From NCBI GenBank assembly GCA_012515365.1, contig JAAYYM010000221.1, positions 1 to 6,972 on the forward strand: a DNA stretch of 6,972 bases, written 5' to 3'. Source of the stretch: Clostridia bacterium. GTDB taxonomy: Bacteria > Bacillota_A > Clostridia > Lachnospirales > Lachnospiraceae. Shown here one piece after another: positions 2,383 to 6,972 of this stretch. A program made the position numbers and the translations under genes. The notes below the pieces were generated by a model. That model was not told the DNA's origin and ran no database searches. It saw only the letters and a program-made list of their open reading frames with translations. Every line of letters begins with the position of its first letter. Within the stretch, counting starts at the first letter, position 1.

Positions 2383-4311
2383 TCACATGAGCAGCGCAGG
2401 TAAAGTAAATGTTTCCAGATATTCCGTAAATGCAGCTCTTGGTATGGGTTTTGAGAAAAAATATCCCTGAAAATAATCGCAGTCCAGTTCCAGAAGACGC
2501 ATAATATGCTCTTCGTTCTCCACACCCTCCATAATAATCTTCATGCCGCCATCACGAACTGATGCAAAAATCCATTTCAGTACAATATATGCCTTTTCAT
2601 TTTGCATAGAAGTCCATAAGATGCTTTTATCAATCTTAATATACTTAAACGGAAGCCCATAAGTACCTTCCATACTCGAGTATCCGGTTCCGTAATCATC
2701 CATGGAAAATGTAAATCCATCCTCAGTAAGTCTGTTCATCATATAACCAAGACGTTCTCTTGATATGCCTGTAGCCGTTTCCGTAATCTCTAAATTGATG
2801 CATTTAGGAGAAATCTGATATCGGCTGACTGTCTCAAACAGTATATCCGCAAAATCATGCTGCATACATTCTACAACAGACAAATTGACCTCCACATACT
2901 CAATTCCTCTTTCCTTAAAGCCTGCTTCCTTATAGTCACGACATACTGTTTCAAACACAAATTTACCTATATCAAGTATATAGCCCTCTTTTTCTGCTAA
3001 CGGTATAAAGATTTCCGGTGAAATAAATCCTAATTTTTCATCCTTTAAACGAATCAGAGCTTCTGCAGAAATAATTCTTTTCCTTTCTACAGAATAAATT
3101 GGCTGGTAATAAACCTCGAAGGTCTGTTTCTCTAATGCATTGCGAATAGCTGACCTGATCTCGTAATTCCGGTTTCTGGCATCGAAATTCAGATCCGAAG
3201 TGAAAAAGACTTTGCTCTGCGTATTAACGGTTTCCACGTAATCAAGTACGTCTATGATCTGTTCAATCGTCTCTGCCTCATCCGGGCACAAAATACAGAT
3301 TGTCTTGATACGGAAAGGTTCTGTGGTTTGATTTTCATCAAAGGAATTTGCAAATCGTTCTTCAATCGCATTTGCAATCTGTTCAATCGCTTCCTTGCTC
3401 ATGTCCGGAAGCTTAATACTGATTTTTTGATCCTTGAGTCTTCCCACAATCGCCTTGCGGTGAACCGTCTTCAAATAATTGGTCACGCCTTTCAAAAGAA
3501 TCTCCATTTTATCAACGCCAAGACTTCTGCTTAAAAATGAATAATTGCAGATATCGATCGTAACTACCCAAAAACGCTGTCGCGTATATAAATCTATTAA
3601 CATGCAGTCACAAAATGCTTCATAAGAAAATGCACCGGTGGAATGATCTAGTATTTCATCAATATTCTGAACACTATACAGCAAAAGAGTCAGGCTGACT
3701 GACATGGTAAAAATCTGAATCAGGTAGCCTTGAAACAGGATTTGCATCAGCACACCAACGCCTACGACCGGTAAGAATGAATATAAGGCCAGACGTTTTT
3801 CAAATGAAATCGTATTTCCATATCTTCTCAGTAAAAGTGCACCAACCATAAAATAGTAAAGGACAACGATGTAAAGTATAAAAAACAAAGGACCATGGCT
3901 ATATTGCCCCATTTCATCAATCTTGAACATAAGTCCGCTCCAAGGTGTAGTAAACAGCAGGGTTACTACTACTGAAATTGGAATCATAACCATATAAATG
4001 AACAGGAGAGGTATTTTTCGTCCCACATTTGTCAGCATAATGATATATATTGCAAAGATCGGAGTCGCAATATTCTGAAAAAGTAAATATAGTAGATTGA
4101 CTAGATAAAGAAGCCATATTGGTACTAATTCGCATTGTTCAATCATGAGTGCGCTTATAATATCAAATATAGCAGAAAACAGACAGACCCAGGCAAGTGC
4201 TGCAAATGCATTGTTGTATGCATAGGGGGAGCGTTTCTTTGTATAAAACAGCAGCAATACAGCGATAAATACAATAACAGCTGCTACGTCAAAACTGATT
4301 TCATATGTCAT
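2383..4311 (-). CDS. Membrane-anchored c-di-GMP phosphodiesterase (7TM, degenerate GGDEF, active-type EAL)
   Basis: The 642-aa protein has about seven hydrophobic spans (roughly residues 8-24, 37-56, 65-93, 101-121, 141-161, 175-194, 198-214). A GGDEF-like domain follows (about 222-375), whose signature position reads KDQKI (293-297), so cyclase activity is not expected. The EAL domain is at about 385-632. EAL domains hydrolyse c-di-GMP to pGpG using two metals. All expected catalytic residues are present: Gln403, Glu417 in EAL, Asn476, Glu508, the Asp538-Asp539 pair in DDYGTGYSS, Lys559, Glu595 and Glu598 in EGVE, and Gln615. The start is well marked by AGGAGG (4318-4323), 6 nt upstream. It follows its inactive paralog by 33 nt and precedes the sirtuin by 37 nt. 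The membrane part probably senses an unknown ligand or membrane state. Confidence 0.92.
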   Translation of the reverse strand: MTYEISFDVAAVIVFIAVLLLFYTKKRSPYAYNNAFAALAWVCLFSAIFDIISALMIEQCELVPIWLLYLVNLLYLLFQNIATPIFAIYIIMLTNVGRKIPLLFIYMVMIPISVVVTLLFTTPWSGLMFKIDEMGQYSHGPLFFILYIVVLYYFMVGALLLRRYGNTISFEKRLALYSFLPVVGVGVLMQILFQGYLIQIFTMSVSLTLLLYSVQNIDEILDHSTGAFSYEAFCDCMLIDLYTRQRFWVVTIDICNYSFLSRSLGVDKMEILLKGVTNYLKTVHRKAIVGRLKDQKISIKLPDMSKEAIEQIANAIEERFANSFDENQTTEPFRIKTICILCPDEAETIEQIIDVLDYVETVNTQSKVFFTSDLNFDARNRNYEIRSAIRNALEKQTFEVYYQPIYSVERKRIISAEALIRLKDEKLGFISPEIFIPLAEKEGYILDIGKFVFETVCRDYKEAGFKERGIEYVEVNLSVVECMQHDFADILFETVSRYQISPKCINLEITETATGISRERLGYMMNRLTEDGFTFSMDDYGTGYSSMEGTYGLPFKYIKIDKSILWTSMQNEKAYIVLKWIFASVRDGGMKIIMEGVENEEHIMRLLELDCDYFQGYFFSKPIPRAAFTEYLETFTLPALLM

Positions 4312-4344: not shown

Positions 4345-6228
4345 TTAAAAGTCAACATTAATGCTAGGTATGACATTACCTTTTATATAAGAGCAGCCCA
4401 TTTCCATTGCCAGTCTTTTGGCCTGATCGGTATCTGCACCACTGATTACGATATCAATCTGCAATTCATTCAGCATGTCAATACTGTTTTTCAAAACCTT
4501 CCTTGCACGTTCATCTACCAGTGCCGTCGCAAATACATCCTTTGTGATTTCAATCCGTGAAAACGGAAGCTCATATACATAGGAAATATTAGAATAACCG
4601 GTTCCATAATTACCAAGCGAAAACGTCACACCTGCATCAACCATCACATCCATCATATGTTTAAGCTCTGCCTGCGATTCCATGGCTTCATCTTCAAGAA
4701 TCCGTAGAATAACTGCTCCTGGTCTGATATGATATTCCTTAAGAATCCACTTCACTTCATTCAGAAATTCTCTCTGCATGCACACAAAAACCGACACATT
4801 GATTTCTGCAAATTGAATTTGATGTTTCGCAGCAGCCTCTGTTGTCAATAGTGAACATGCCTTTCTGAACAGATAAATTCCAACCCTGAAAGCCAGCTGT
4901 GGATCAGCAAGGACAAGCTCTGATTCTTCCGAAAGTAAATAGGTCTTGTCCTCTGACAGAATCTTTAAATCAATCTCTACGCCCTCTATTCGATCATTTC
5001 GAACAGAATAAATCCCCTGATTATAATCTTCAAACTTAGAATATTCTATGGCATCCTGTATCTTCTGTTCTAACTCTGCTCTTGCTTTTCTTTGTGAAAT
5101 ATTTAATGAAAATACAGTCATCCTCTTATTTGTATGATGCTCTGCGCTGATATACTCAAATAAATCCAAGACCTCTTCCACATTTGCCGCATCCTCCGGA
5201 AGATTAATACGACAGATATGAACCGACATCATCATTGTTGTCCCATTCACTGTAAAAGGCTGATCAAAGCGCGCCTCAATCAAATCCATGAAATGCAGAA
5301 TATCCTCTTCTGTCTTGTTATGCAAAACAGCACTGAACCCTGCTTCAGTAGTATGATAAATAACTGCGTCCTTTTCAAGTGAATTTAAAAATTGACCAAG
5401 TGCTGTAAGAATCCATGTACATTGCTTGACTCCAATGCTCTTTTTCAAAAAATCAAAATCATCAAGCTCTATGATCACCATTGCAAACGGTTCTACCGAC
5501 ATATAGTCCAGTTTCATCATAGATACAAAGGTTTTCTTATTATATACATTTAGATTTGTATCGATTTCAAGAAATGGATTTTGAATGGTAAAGAACACAA
5601 TATACAGACAGATCACCATTGCAAAGCTCTGTGTGAGCTCCCCTGGGAAAGTCATCTGAATGGTCATTCCCAATGTTGAAATGCATGTTATGATCACGAT
5701 CACAATTCTATTTTCAAGAGAAATATAATGTTTGATTTTCCAAAGAAAGCATGCAGCAATCATAAGATAGGAGATGGCAATCAGTACTGCTGCCATCTGT
5801 CCATTGCCACGTATGTAAGTACCATCGTCGCTATAGTAAAATATAAGATGTGTATAGTAAGTCGTGCAAACCAGCACGGTTTCCAGAAGCATAGGAATCA
5901 AAATAATAAAACGTTTACTAAGCTCAAGACTCGTCCACGTCTTTGTATAGCCATAGACATAAACCAAAACGAGCATAGCTTCTCCTACCTGTACAATATA
6001 GCATAGGCCTGAAGTCATATATTTAATCCAGTTTGGAATCGCAGCTCCGGCATTAATTGCAGTAGCATCCAGAATGTCACAGGTCGTACAGATAACTGCA
6101 CCTATAATCAGCGCAACAAAAAGACGATTCTGATAACTCGGAATCCTCTTTTTCATTCCATACAATAAAAGAATCAGGACCAACAGCACAACAGCTGCTA
6201 TATCATAACATATATTGTACGTTACCAT
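4345..6228 (-). CDS. Pseudo-phosphodiesterase paralog (7TM, degenerate GGDEF, inactive EAL)
   Basis: The 627-aa protein is a diverged sister of the downstream gene. The N-termini align (TYxIxxD-AAV, KKRxP), each has about seven membrane spans (here roughly 8-23, 35-53, 70-93, 106-124, 144-164, 173-192, 199-215), and the domain order is the same. The GGDEF site reads TEAGF (294-298), although the upstream LDDF segment (255-258) survives. In the EAL region (about 390-627), Gln404, Glu418 and Asn477 remain. The other catalytic positions have changed: Glu to Arg509, Asp-Asp to Gly539-Asn540, Lys to Glu560, Glu to Ser596, Glu to Asp599, Gln to Lys616. The EAL triplet reads EID. The fold motif YGTGYSN is kept. 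The C-terminus is about 15 residues shorter, lacking the final helix. The frame is intact, so this is a selected pseudoenzyme rather than a decaying gene. Start: AAAGGAGT (6233-6240), overlapping the MaoC stop. Confidence 0.9.
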   Translation of the reverse strand: MVTYNICYDIAAVVLLVLILLLYGMKKRIPSYQNRLFVALIIGAVICTTCDILDATAINAGAAIPNWIKYMTSGLCYIVQVGEAMLVLVYVYGYTKTWTSLELSKRFIILIPMLLETVLVCTTYYTHLIFYYSDDGTYIRGNGQMAAVLIAISYLMIAACFLWKIKHYISLENRIVIVIITCISTLGMTIQMTFPGELTQSFAMVICLYIVFFTIQNPFLEIDTNLNVYNKKTFVSMMKLDYMSVEPFAMVIIELDDFDFLKKSIGVKQCTWILTALGQFLNSLEKDAVIYHTTEAGFSAVLHNKTEEDILHFMDLIEARFDQPFTVNGTTMMMSVHICRINLPEDAANVEEVLDLFEYISAEHHTNKRMTVFSLNISQRKARAELEQKIQDAIEYSKFEDYNQGIYSVRNDRIEGVEIDLKILSEDKTYLLSEESELVLADPQLAFRVGIYLFRKACSLLTTEAAAKHQIQFAEINVSVFVCMQREFLNEVKWILKEYHIRPGAVILRILEDEAMESQAELKHMMDVMVDAGVTFSLGNYGTGYSNISYVYELPFSRIEITKDVFATALVDERARKVLKNSIDMLNELQIDIVISGADTDQAKRLAMEMGCSYIKGNVIPSINVDF

Positions 6229-6238
6229 ATGTACTCCT

Positions 6239-6652
6239 TTAAATAAGTCCGATCTGCATTTCTGCTTTAGATACTTTCTGACCAGCCTGATTAGTAATAA
6301 AAGCCTTTACGGTAATCATTTGAAAGGTATCGTTTTTTTCTATCACTTCTCCTGTCACACTCAACTCATCACCGATCAACACAGGTTTCAAAAATTTAGT
6401 TTGAATTTTATGGATCAGACTTTTCTCACCCGGCAGCCATACTCCAGCCAGCGTAGAATAATAAGAAGCTGTAAGCATGCCATATACCACACATCCTGAA
6501 TATCCTTTTTGCTTTGCATAATCCGGATCACAATGCAACGGATTGCAGTCTCCCGTAATTGCTAAAAAGGCCTTTTGATCTTCACTCGTCACTTTGACAT
6601 GAAAAGTTTCTTTTTGTCCGATTTTGATCTCTTCAAATGTATATTGCTTCAT
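6239..6652 (-). CDS. MaoC-family (hot-dog) enoyl hydratase/dehydratase
   Basis: This is a 137-aa single-domain hot-dog protein. Residues 33-42 (TGDCNPLHCD) match the hydratase-2 motif G-D-x-N-P-x-H-x-D, with Asp35 and His40 as the catalytic pair that adds or removes water at (R)-3-hydroxyacyl/enoyl thioesters. The size matches short PhaJ/MaoC-type enzymes. Its neighbour is an acyl carrier protein 10 nt upstream, so the substrate is probably ACP-bound rather than CoA-bound; that is inference. The start is set by AAGGAGT, whose first bases are the ACP stop codon, and its own stop lies in the next gene's Shine-Dalgarno sequence. Likely pathways are fatty-acyl, polyketide-like or surface-glycan acyl modification; the missing upstream genes would decide. 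The enzyme class is secure, the pathway is not. Confidence 0.93.
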   Translation of the reverse strand: MKQYTFEEIKIGQKETFHVKVTSEDQKAFLAITGDCNPLHCDPDYAKQKGYSGCVVYGMLTASYYSTLAGVWLPGEKSLIHKIQTKFLKPVLIGDELSVTGEVIEKNDTFQMITVKAFITNQAGQKVSKAEMQIGLI

Positions 6653-6662
6653 TGGATACTCC

Positions 6663-6908
6663 TTAAGCTGACATTTTTCTCATGATCAGATCGATCATTT
6701 CTCCGACGTTCTCAAGTTTATTAACTTCTTTAATATCAAACTTCATAGAAAATTCTTTTTCCATTGCTACGATCAGGCTGATATGTTCTAGAGAATCCCA
6801 ATCCTCAATATCTTCTGAATTCGTTTCATTTTCTATGATTAAATCTTCGTCATCGAATACATCCCTAAAGATTTCCTGCACTTTATTCATCACTGCTTCT
6901 CTGGTCAT
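6663..6908 (-). CDS. Acyl carrier protein
   Basis: This is an 81-aa acidic helical protein with the phosphopantetheine site WDSLEH. Ser39 would carry the prosthetic arm that holds acyl intermediates as thioesters. The rest fits a carrier protein: an amphipathic first helix (VMNKVQEIFRDVF), an acidic loop (about 19-38), helix 2 after the serine (LEHISLIVAMEKEF), and a closing helix at the C-terminus. Trp37 before DSL, and DSLE rather than DSLD, are more typical of carriers dedicated to a side pathway, such as glycan or secondary acyl clusters, than of the fatty-acid AcpP. Upstream in-frame ATGs at 6929 and 6917 exist, but AAAGGAA (6917-6923) is 8 nt from the ATG at 6908. It is coupled to MaoC. 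Its synthetase or ligase partner is not in the window. Confidence 0.93.
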   Translation of the reverse strand: MTREAVMNKVQEIFRDVFDDEDLIIENETNSEDIEDWDSLEHISLIVAMEKEFSMKFDIKEVNKLENVGEMIDLIMRKMSA

Positions 6909-6916
6909 TTTATACA

Positions 6917-6923
6917 TTCCTTT
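6917..6923 (-). promoter_or_regulatory. Ribosome binding site deciding the ACP start
   Basis: AAAGGAA on the minus strand is 8 nt before the ATG at 6908-6906. The in-frame ATGs at 6929 and 6917 lie before or on this site and lack a purine-rich sequence at the right distance, so they are unlikely starts. Confidence 0.6.
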
Positions 6924-6972
6924 ATTCAATCTGTCTTATTTTCTATATTTCTAAATAAAAATTTCAAAAAAC

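Follow-up and report, generated by a model that had tools for sequence, protein, structure and literature searches.

Why would a bacterium keep a phosphodiesterase domain whose catalytic residues are almost all gone, next to an intact paralogue? This question is raised by a 6,972-nucleotide stretch of a Clostridia bacterium contig (JAAYYM010000221.1), here called the window, in which adjacent genes encode the two proteins that we designate A and B (Table 1). Each consists of a membrane part, a GGDEF-like domain that lacks the signature and an EAL domain; aligned over 617 residues, with two gap positions, A and B share 27% identity. The best-known inactive EAL proteins, LapD, FimX, YcgF and YdiV, are c-di-GMP receptors or binders of unrelated proteins, and YdiV is an EAL protein that acts by protein binding. 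A sequence-only reading of A had put forward both kinds of role, a c-di-GMP receptor of the LapD or FimX type or, as an alternative, protein binding independent of ligand.

Table 1. Features of the window and of protein A; coordinates are window positions, and the literature cited is represented by excerpts.
Feature	Coordinates	Strand	Remarks
Protein A	4345..6228	minus	627 aa; a 7TM-like membrane part precedes a GGDEF-like domain lacking the GGDEF motif and an EAL pseudo-phosphodiesterase domain
A membrane part, residues 1-218	5575..6228	minus	PF16927 HisKA_7TM match 24.7 bits, below cut-off 28.6
A degenerate GGDEF-like domain, residues 227-354	5167..5550	minus	PF00990 22.2 bits, below cut-off 23.8
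A EAL barrel, residues 385-625	4354..5076	minus	Catalytic positions replaced: 7/9
A beta5-alpha5 loop and helix alpha5 (compound-helix segment), residues 541-556	4561..4608	minus	Top-conserved 16-residue window of A EAL
A loop, alpha5, beta6, alpha6 (classic EAL dimer face), residues 541-590	4459..4608	minus	Interface as excerpted from PMC5301497
A Arg509 at metal-binding Glu position	4702..4704	minus	Arg/Lys in 9/9 family members
A Glu560 at catalytic Lys position	4549..4551	minus	Glu in 8/9, Gln in P0009
Protein B	2383..4311	minus	642 aa, architecture as A, catalytic EAL positions intact 9/9
MaoC-like protein	6239..6652	minus	Ends 10 bp ahead of A; absent beside A in L001
Acyl-carrier-protein-like protein	6663..6929	minus	PF00550 23.4 bits, cut-off 20.8
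Sirtuin-like gene	1623-2345	minus	Start probably 2345; 37 bp past B stop

The genes of the window form a run on the minus strand in the order acyl-carrier-like, MaoC-like, A, B and a gene whose product we take, from its sequence, to be sirtuin-like. The gap from the MaoC-like gene to A is 10 bp and that from the A stop to B is 33 bp, and A and B are each preceded by a clear ribosome-binding site, B having its own. The short gaps and the ribosome-binding sites suggest that A and B are probably co-transcribed in the window, where the MaoC-like gene is probably an operon partner of A and the sirtuin-like gene may be the last of the run. Predicted promoters and terminators were no more numerous than in shuffles and hence were not used, and Rfam gave no match at gathering thresholds. 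With the acyl-carrier-like and MaoC-like genes immediately ahead of A in the same orientation, this genome may link c-di-GMP signalling with a lipid or acyl pathway. As read from the sequences, the GGDEF signature is missing from A and from B, so neither should make c-di-GMP; the GGDEF-like domain of B exceeds the Pfam cut-off (30.6 vs 23.8) and may be retained for regulation.

The EAL domain of A has lost its catalytic residues and kept its fold. It matches PF00563 with 110.6 bits over residues 388-620 (cut-off 31.3; B scores 199.9 bits), and the predicted structure is an intact EAL barrel spanning about residues 385-625, as expected from the earlier proposal that the fold is preserved. Mean pLDDT is only 69 in the loop block 541-550, and structural matches of the model include LapD and FimX. 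The interval 4345..5046, on which attention had been centred, covers residues 395-627 and the stop, and the folded domain begins about 10 residues earlier. Out of nine catalytic and metal-binding residues of active phosphodiesterases, B has all nine and A has two, E418 and N477 (E417 and N476 in B). The other seven are replaced (B to A: E508 to R509, D538-D539 to G539-N540, K559 to E560, E595 to S596, E598 to D599 and Q615 to K616), and Arg421 of the EALxR motif in B is Lys422 in A; our alignment to B bears out every replacement and residue number listed in the sequence-only reading. Still present are Y541, G542, T543, G544, Y545, S546 and N547, which follow the lost Asp pair of DDYG, and N477, as had been noted, and to these we add E512, the second Glu of LEITE. 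A Glu of this type steadies loop 6 in active EAL enzymes. The loop-6 Glu is also named in the excerpted text of a paper on BvgR (PMC11537037). With its metal and ligand residues gone, and unconserved in its relatives as described below, the domain should have no capacity for hydrolysis and probably does not bind c-di-GMP in the normal way.

To place A among its relatives, we scored 7995 candidates in a protein search. Nine are close: P0001 (73% identical), the seven proteins P0003-P0009 (41-43%) and the fragment P0002, whose 440 aa are identical to the window. The eight full-length relatives are all 621-627 aa, and the tenth match, P0010, is an EAL protein with 23% identity and canonical residues at the compared positions. 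A profile search with the nine A sequences (7995 candidates scored, E <= 1e-70) added no further member. A scan of genome contigs yielded one A ortholog, at locus L001 of genome G001, and two Pseudomonadales loci at 20% identity; the G001 ortholog is 41% identical to A and aligns over its whole length in a single frame without stops. In a quick tree of 58 proteins, the A family forms one clade (SH-aLRT 100%), as do the B orthologs (likewise 100%), and the stem branch of the A family is long, at 1.26 changes per column. With 40% support at the forks around the family, the tree does not group A firmly with B, and we do not claim that A is a duplicate of B. A belongs to a distinct, rare family in what, judging by the names attached to some B relatives, is probably a Lachnospiraceae lineage.

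Broad loss is common to this whole clade. All nine members (A and its eight full-length relatives) keep only two or three of the nine catalytic positions, and the set of losses varies. P0001 retains the same two as A, whereas the seven distant members retain the first Asp of DDYG and have lost the Asn. To that first Asp, P0003-P0007 add E418, P0008 adds E418 and the second Asp, and P0009 adds E418 and the final Glu of EGVE, so that E418 is present in 9/9. Repetition of the broad loss in eight full-length relatives, together with the open frame of the G001 ortholog, indicates that the losses in A are not a sequencing fault; with these relatives at full length and in one clade, decay is unlikely too.

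We compared where conservation lies in each family across a deep split, which separates A and P0001 from P0003-P0009 (two vs seven) and B and P0012 from P0013-P0023 (two vs eleven). In A, cross-split identity is 43% in the EAL domain, 48% in the membrane part, 31% in the GGDEF-like domain, 22% at the nine core positions and 79% in residues 541-556; the corresponding values in B are 69%, 50%, 40%, 100% and 61%, and since the seven sequences on one side of the A split are close kin, this is one deep comparison and not many. The EAL domain of A is thus about as conserved as its membrane part, in keeping with the earlier claim that selection maintains a non-catalytic role. The membrane parts of A and B are equally constrained and the EAL domains differ (43% vs 69%), so constraint on much of the A barrel is relaxed, with 541-556 as the exception. 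Outside residues 541-590, cross-split EAL identity is 0.39 in A and 0.69 in B, and residues 590-599 of A are 23% identical.

The segment 541-556, which was picked after the alignment had been viewed, ranks first by identity among the 225 16-residue windows of the A EAL domain; by the A-minus-B difference it ranks fifth, and 542-557 ranks first. When the alpha5 and alpha6 set (541-556 plus 562-590) was moved around the domain, its identity was reached by 1/239 circular shifts in A and by 172/239 in B, and its A-minus-B difference by 6/239 shifts. Counts of invariant columns give a weak contrast in A (20/50 vs 46/191, p = 0.03), and the counts in B are 28/50 vs 84/191 (p = 0.15). Three further stretches, 390-399, 450-459 and about 489-505, are also conserved more in A than in B, so the dimer face is not the sole constrained part.

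The retained segment has a defined role in EAL enzymes. As described in excerpts from PMC5301497 and PMC3989770, the classic EAL dimer forms through alpha5 and alpha6, two short helices join across the protomers into a compound helix, and dimerisation moves the DDFGTG loop into the active site. According to excerpts from PMC5301497, it is this alpha5/alpha6 dimerisation that renders EAL enzymes competent, and the enzymes are controlled through it. In BlrP1 the compound helix is centred on Tyr308, Arg316 contacts the other protomer, and mutation of these residues lowers activity about 9- and 5-fold, respectively (PMC3989770, excerpted). By their spacing from Asp302 and Lys323 in that excerpt, the equivalents in A are Tyr545 and Glu553, neither of which varies among A family members; with Glu553 in place of the BlrP1 Arg, that contact would not be identical. 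The same source, in excerpt, describes degenerate compound helices as frequent in inactive EAL subfamilies, which makes their retention in A unusual. Loss of catalysis combined with retention of most of the compound-helix element thus sets A apart. Degenerate EAL domains were already known; what is new here is the retained compound-helix segment, the tandem with an intact paralogue and the distinct, rare family.

The second feature that goes beyond the earlier proposal, after the identity of the kept part of A as the EAL dimerisation surface, is that an intact phosphodiesterase of the same architecture recurs as its neighbour. At L001, the B ortholog (10876-12783) comes 25 bp after the A ortholog (8985-10850) and has the same direction, so A is directly upstream of B at both loci read, and no gene but B recurs beside A. 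The flanking genes differ. Upstream of A in L001 are an intact-GGDEF protein (7029-8480) and a small membrane protein, and downstream of B are genes that we presume from their sequences to be MarR-like and ATPase-like. The 7029-8480 product reads as a probable diguanylate cyclase, which would place a probable maker and a breaker of c-di-GMP next to the pseudoenzyme. Equal longest-contig sizes for the A/B protein pairs P0003/P0017 (20887) and P0001/P0024 (191140) suggest, by that equality alone, that these pairs may be linked as well. P0024, listed with 374 aa against 642 aa for P0012, begins within the B frame; its short length is possibly due to a frameshift or a gene-calling fault.

We tentatively favor a model, one that we would not quite call probable, in which A is a membrane-anchored pseudo-phosphodiesterase that pairs with the EAL domain of B through the dimer face and acts as its regulator. 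The relaxed pocket and the held dimer face argue against a conserved c-di-GMP receptor and for protein binding through that face, and B, which has the same build, lies beside A at both loci and has an intact EAL domain, is the obvious partner. We infer the heterodimer from sequence, as we do the loss of c-di-GMP binding and the co-transcription with B. Under this model, A would retain the loop-6/alpha5/alpha6 face by which EAL domains dimerise, and would pair through it with the intact EAL domain of its neighbor of the same 7TM, degenerate GGDEF and EAL build. A seated on the dimer face of B would then set the state of loop 6 in B, and hence raise or lower its activity, and a signal sensed by both membrane parts would be passed on to B. 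Against this pairing, the face would be conserved just as well if A formed a homodimer or bound its own linker helix as LapD does; the conservation signal comes from one deep split with few sequences, and direct linkage was read at two loci.

We also consider possible, with more doubt, the stronger version that A and B form an obligate pseudoenzyme-enzyme pair, the dead A serving as the second half of the B EAL dimer and switching B on or off by membrane-sensed input. If true, such an arrangement would parallel kinase/pseudokinase pairs among EAL proteins, with the dead partner selected for its dimer face alone. A conserved tandem of dead and intact proteins, with the dimer face kept and the pocket freed, would show that the dimer partner itself can be a regulator, and the persistence of degenerate EAL proteins in genomes becomes a problem that is directly testable with two co-expressed proteins. 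Our literature search, which mostly covered papers outside subscription journals, found no EAL pseudoenzyme/enzyme pair.

A related explanation, which we hold to be unlikely although it survives best among the alternatives, is that A works as YdiV and YcgF do, binding some protein other than B without need of a ligand, as a homodimer or monomer and through its retained EAL surface, and that B is an ordinary phosphodiesterase and a chance neighbor. An unconserved pocket under a conserved surface would be expected here too, and YcgF/BluF sets the precedent, having lost c-di-GMP turnover and binding and become an anti-repressor (PMC3989770, in excerpt). However, B is the one gene that recurs next to A at the two loci read, and the membrane and GGDEF-like parts that A shares with B favor like-with-like pairing. 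Unlike YcgF/BluF and YdiV, A is also a membrane protein, still has the compound-helix segment and stands in tandem with an intact phosphodiesterase. Of the two roles first suggested for A, ligand-independent protein binding is in general the better fit, given the varying ligand positions and the kept dimer surface.

The other suggestion, a c-di-GMP receptor of the LapD or FimX type whose degenerate EAL domain relays the ligand through the membrane part, found no support, and we judge it improbable. The broad layout is shared, a membrane part with degenerate GGDEF and EAL domains; E418 is present in 9/9 members and Q404, the Gln of QPI, in 2/9; and LapD and FimX are among the structural matches. 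However, the pocket and ligand positions are lost in A and differ between orthologs: the Arg of EALxR is replaced by Lys or, in 7/9, by Cys or Ser, Arg takes the place of the QPI Gln in 7/9, Asn477 is Gly in 7/9, and residues 590-599 have the low identity given above. LapD itself binds c-di-GMP with a loop 6 that lacks the active consensus, as excerpted from PMC3032553, the reverse of A, in which the ligand positions are unconserved and most of loop 6 and alpha5 is kept. LapD has a HAMP domain, whereas A has a 7TM-like part and lies beside an intact paralogue, and the NCBIfam LapD equivalog model (NF045673) gives A 27.3 bits against a cut-off of 1020. The FimX EAL domain likewise binds c-di-GMP, and in Xanthomonas a PilZ protein through it (PMC3989770, excerpted), in contrast to the unconserved ligand positions of A.

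That the pocket has been rebuilt for another small ligand, with the basic residue at 509 and the acidic one at 560 as parts of it, is no more probable than a receptor role. The earlier proposal of a remade rather than emptied metal pocket stands at these two positions, where charge is maintained (Arg or Lys in 9/9; Glu in 8/9), and fails elsewhere, since positions 596, 599 and 616 vary within the family and the two subclades have different residues at most other pocket positions. Arg509 and Glu560 may instead be a buried pair steadying the emptied barrel, which would explain their retention equally well. Least likely, and in our view very improbable, is that A is a decaying duplicate without function: the long stem, the rarity and the lower EAL conservation relative to B are consistent with decay, but the eight full-length relatives, the clear ribosome-binding site and the cross-split identities of segment 541-556 and the membrane part speak against it.

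In its losses A resembles BvgR, a class III EAL protein that lacks 12/13 catalytic residues, and differs from it in loop 6, which is degenerate in BvgR (PMC11537037, excerpted), whereas A keeps Y-G-x-G-Y-S/T-N and E512. As cited in the same excerpt, class III combines absent catalytic residues with a degenerate loop 6. A fits the class on catalysis, with 7/9 residues absent, and not clearly on loop 6, where the DD pair is lost and the remainder, with alpha5, is retained and highly conserved. The fold, the loop-6 glycines and tyrosine and the alpha5/alpha6 face are common to A and active EAL proteins (MorA, MucR, BlrP1 and the neighbor B), from which A differs at the replaced catalytic positions.

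Finally, we compared 154 proteins at twelve positions: A, B, 130 listed search matches and 22 genome loci, including some rows that repeat one gene (P0002 with A, P0011 with B, L018 with P0007 and L014 with P0019). Outside the A family (A, P0001-P0009 and L018), only two proteins depart from the canonical residues, by a single residue each, P0099 at the IKID Asp and L017 with Asn to Asp, in a set that leans to intact proteins since 120 of its rows are the best 120 of 694 relatives of intact B. G001 has 15 EAL domains; 13 are canonical at all twelve positions, the A ortholog is the only broadly degenerate one and one further domain has Asn to Asp. The genus of G001 holds G001 alone. Searches with the A alignment, scoring at most three candidates per genome in samples drawn from larger groups, placed an A ortholog in G001 only, both among 397 genomes of its family (1177 bits) and among 392 of its order. 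The next listed family-search matches (306-363 bits) are the B protein of G001 and seven other proteins that are intact at the compared positions. In the G001 protein L017, Asp takes the place of the metal-binding Asn, and the other eleven positions are canonical.
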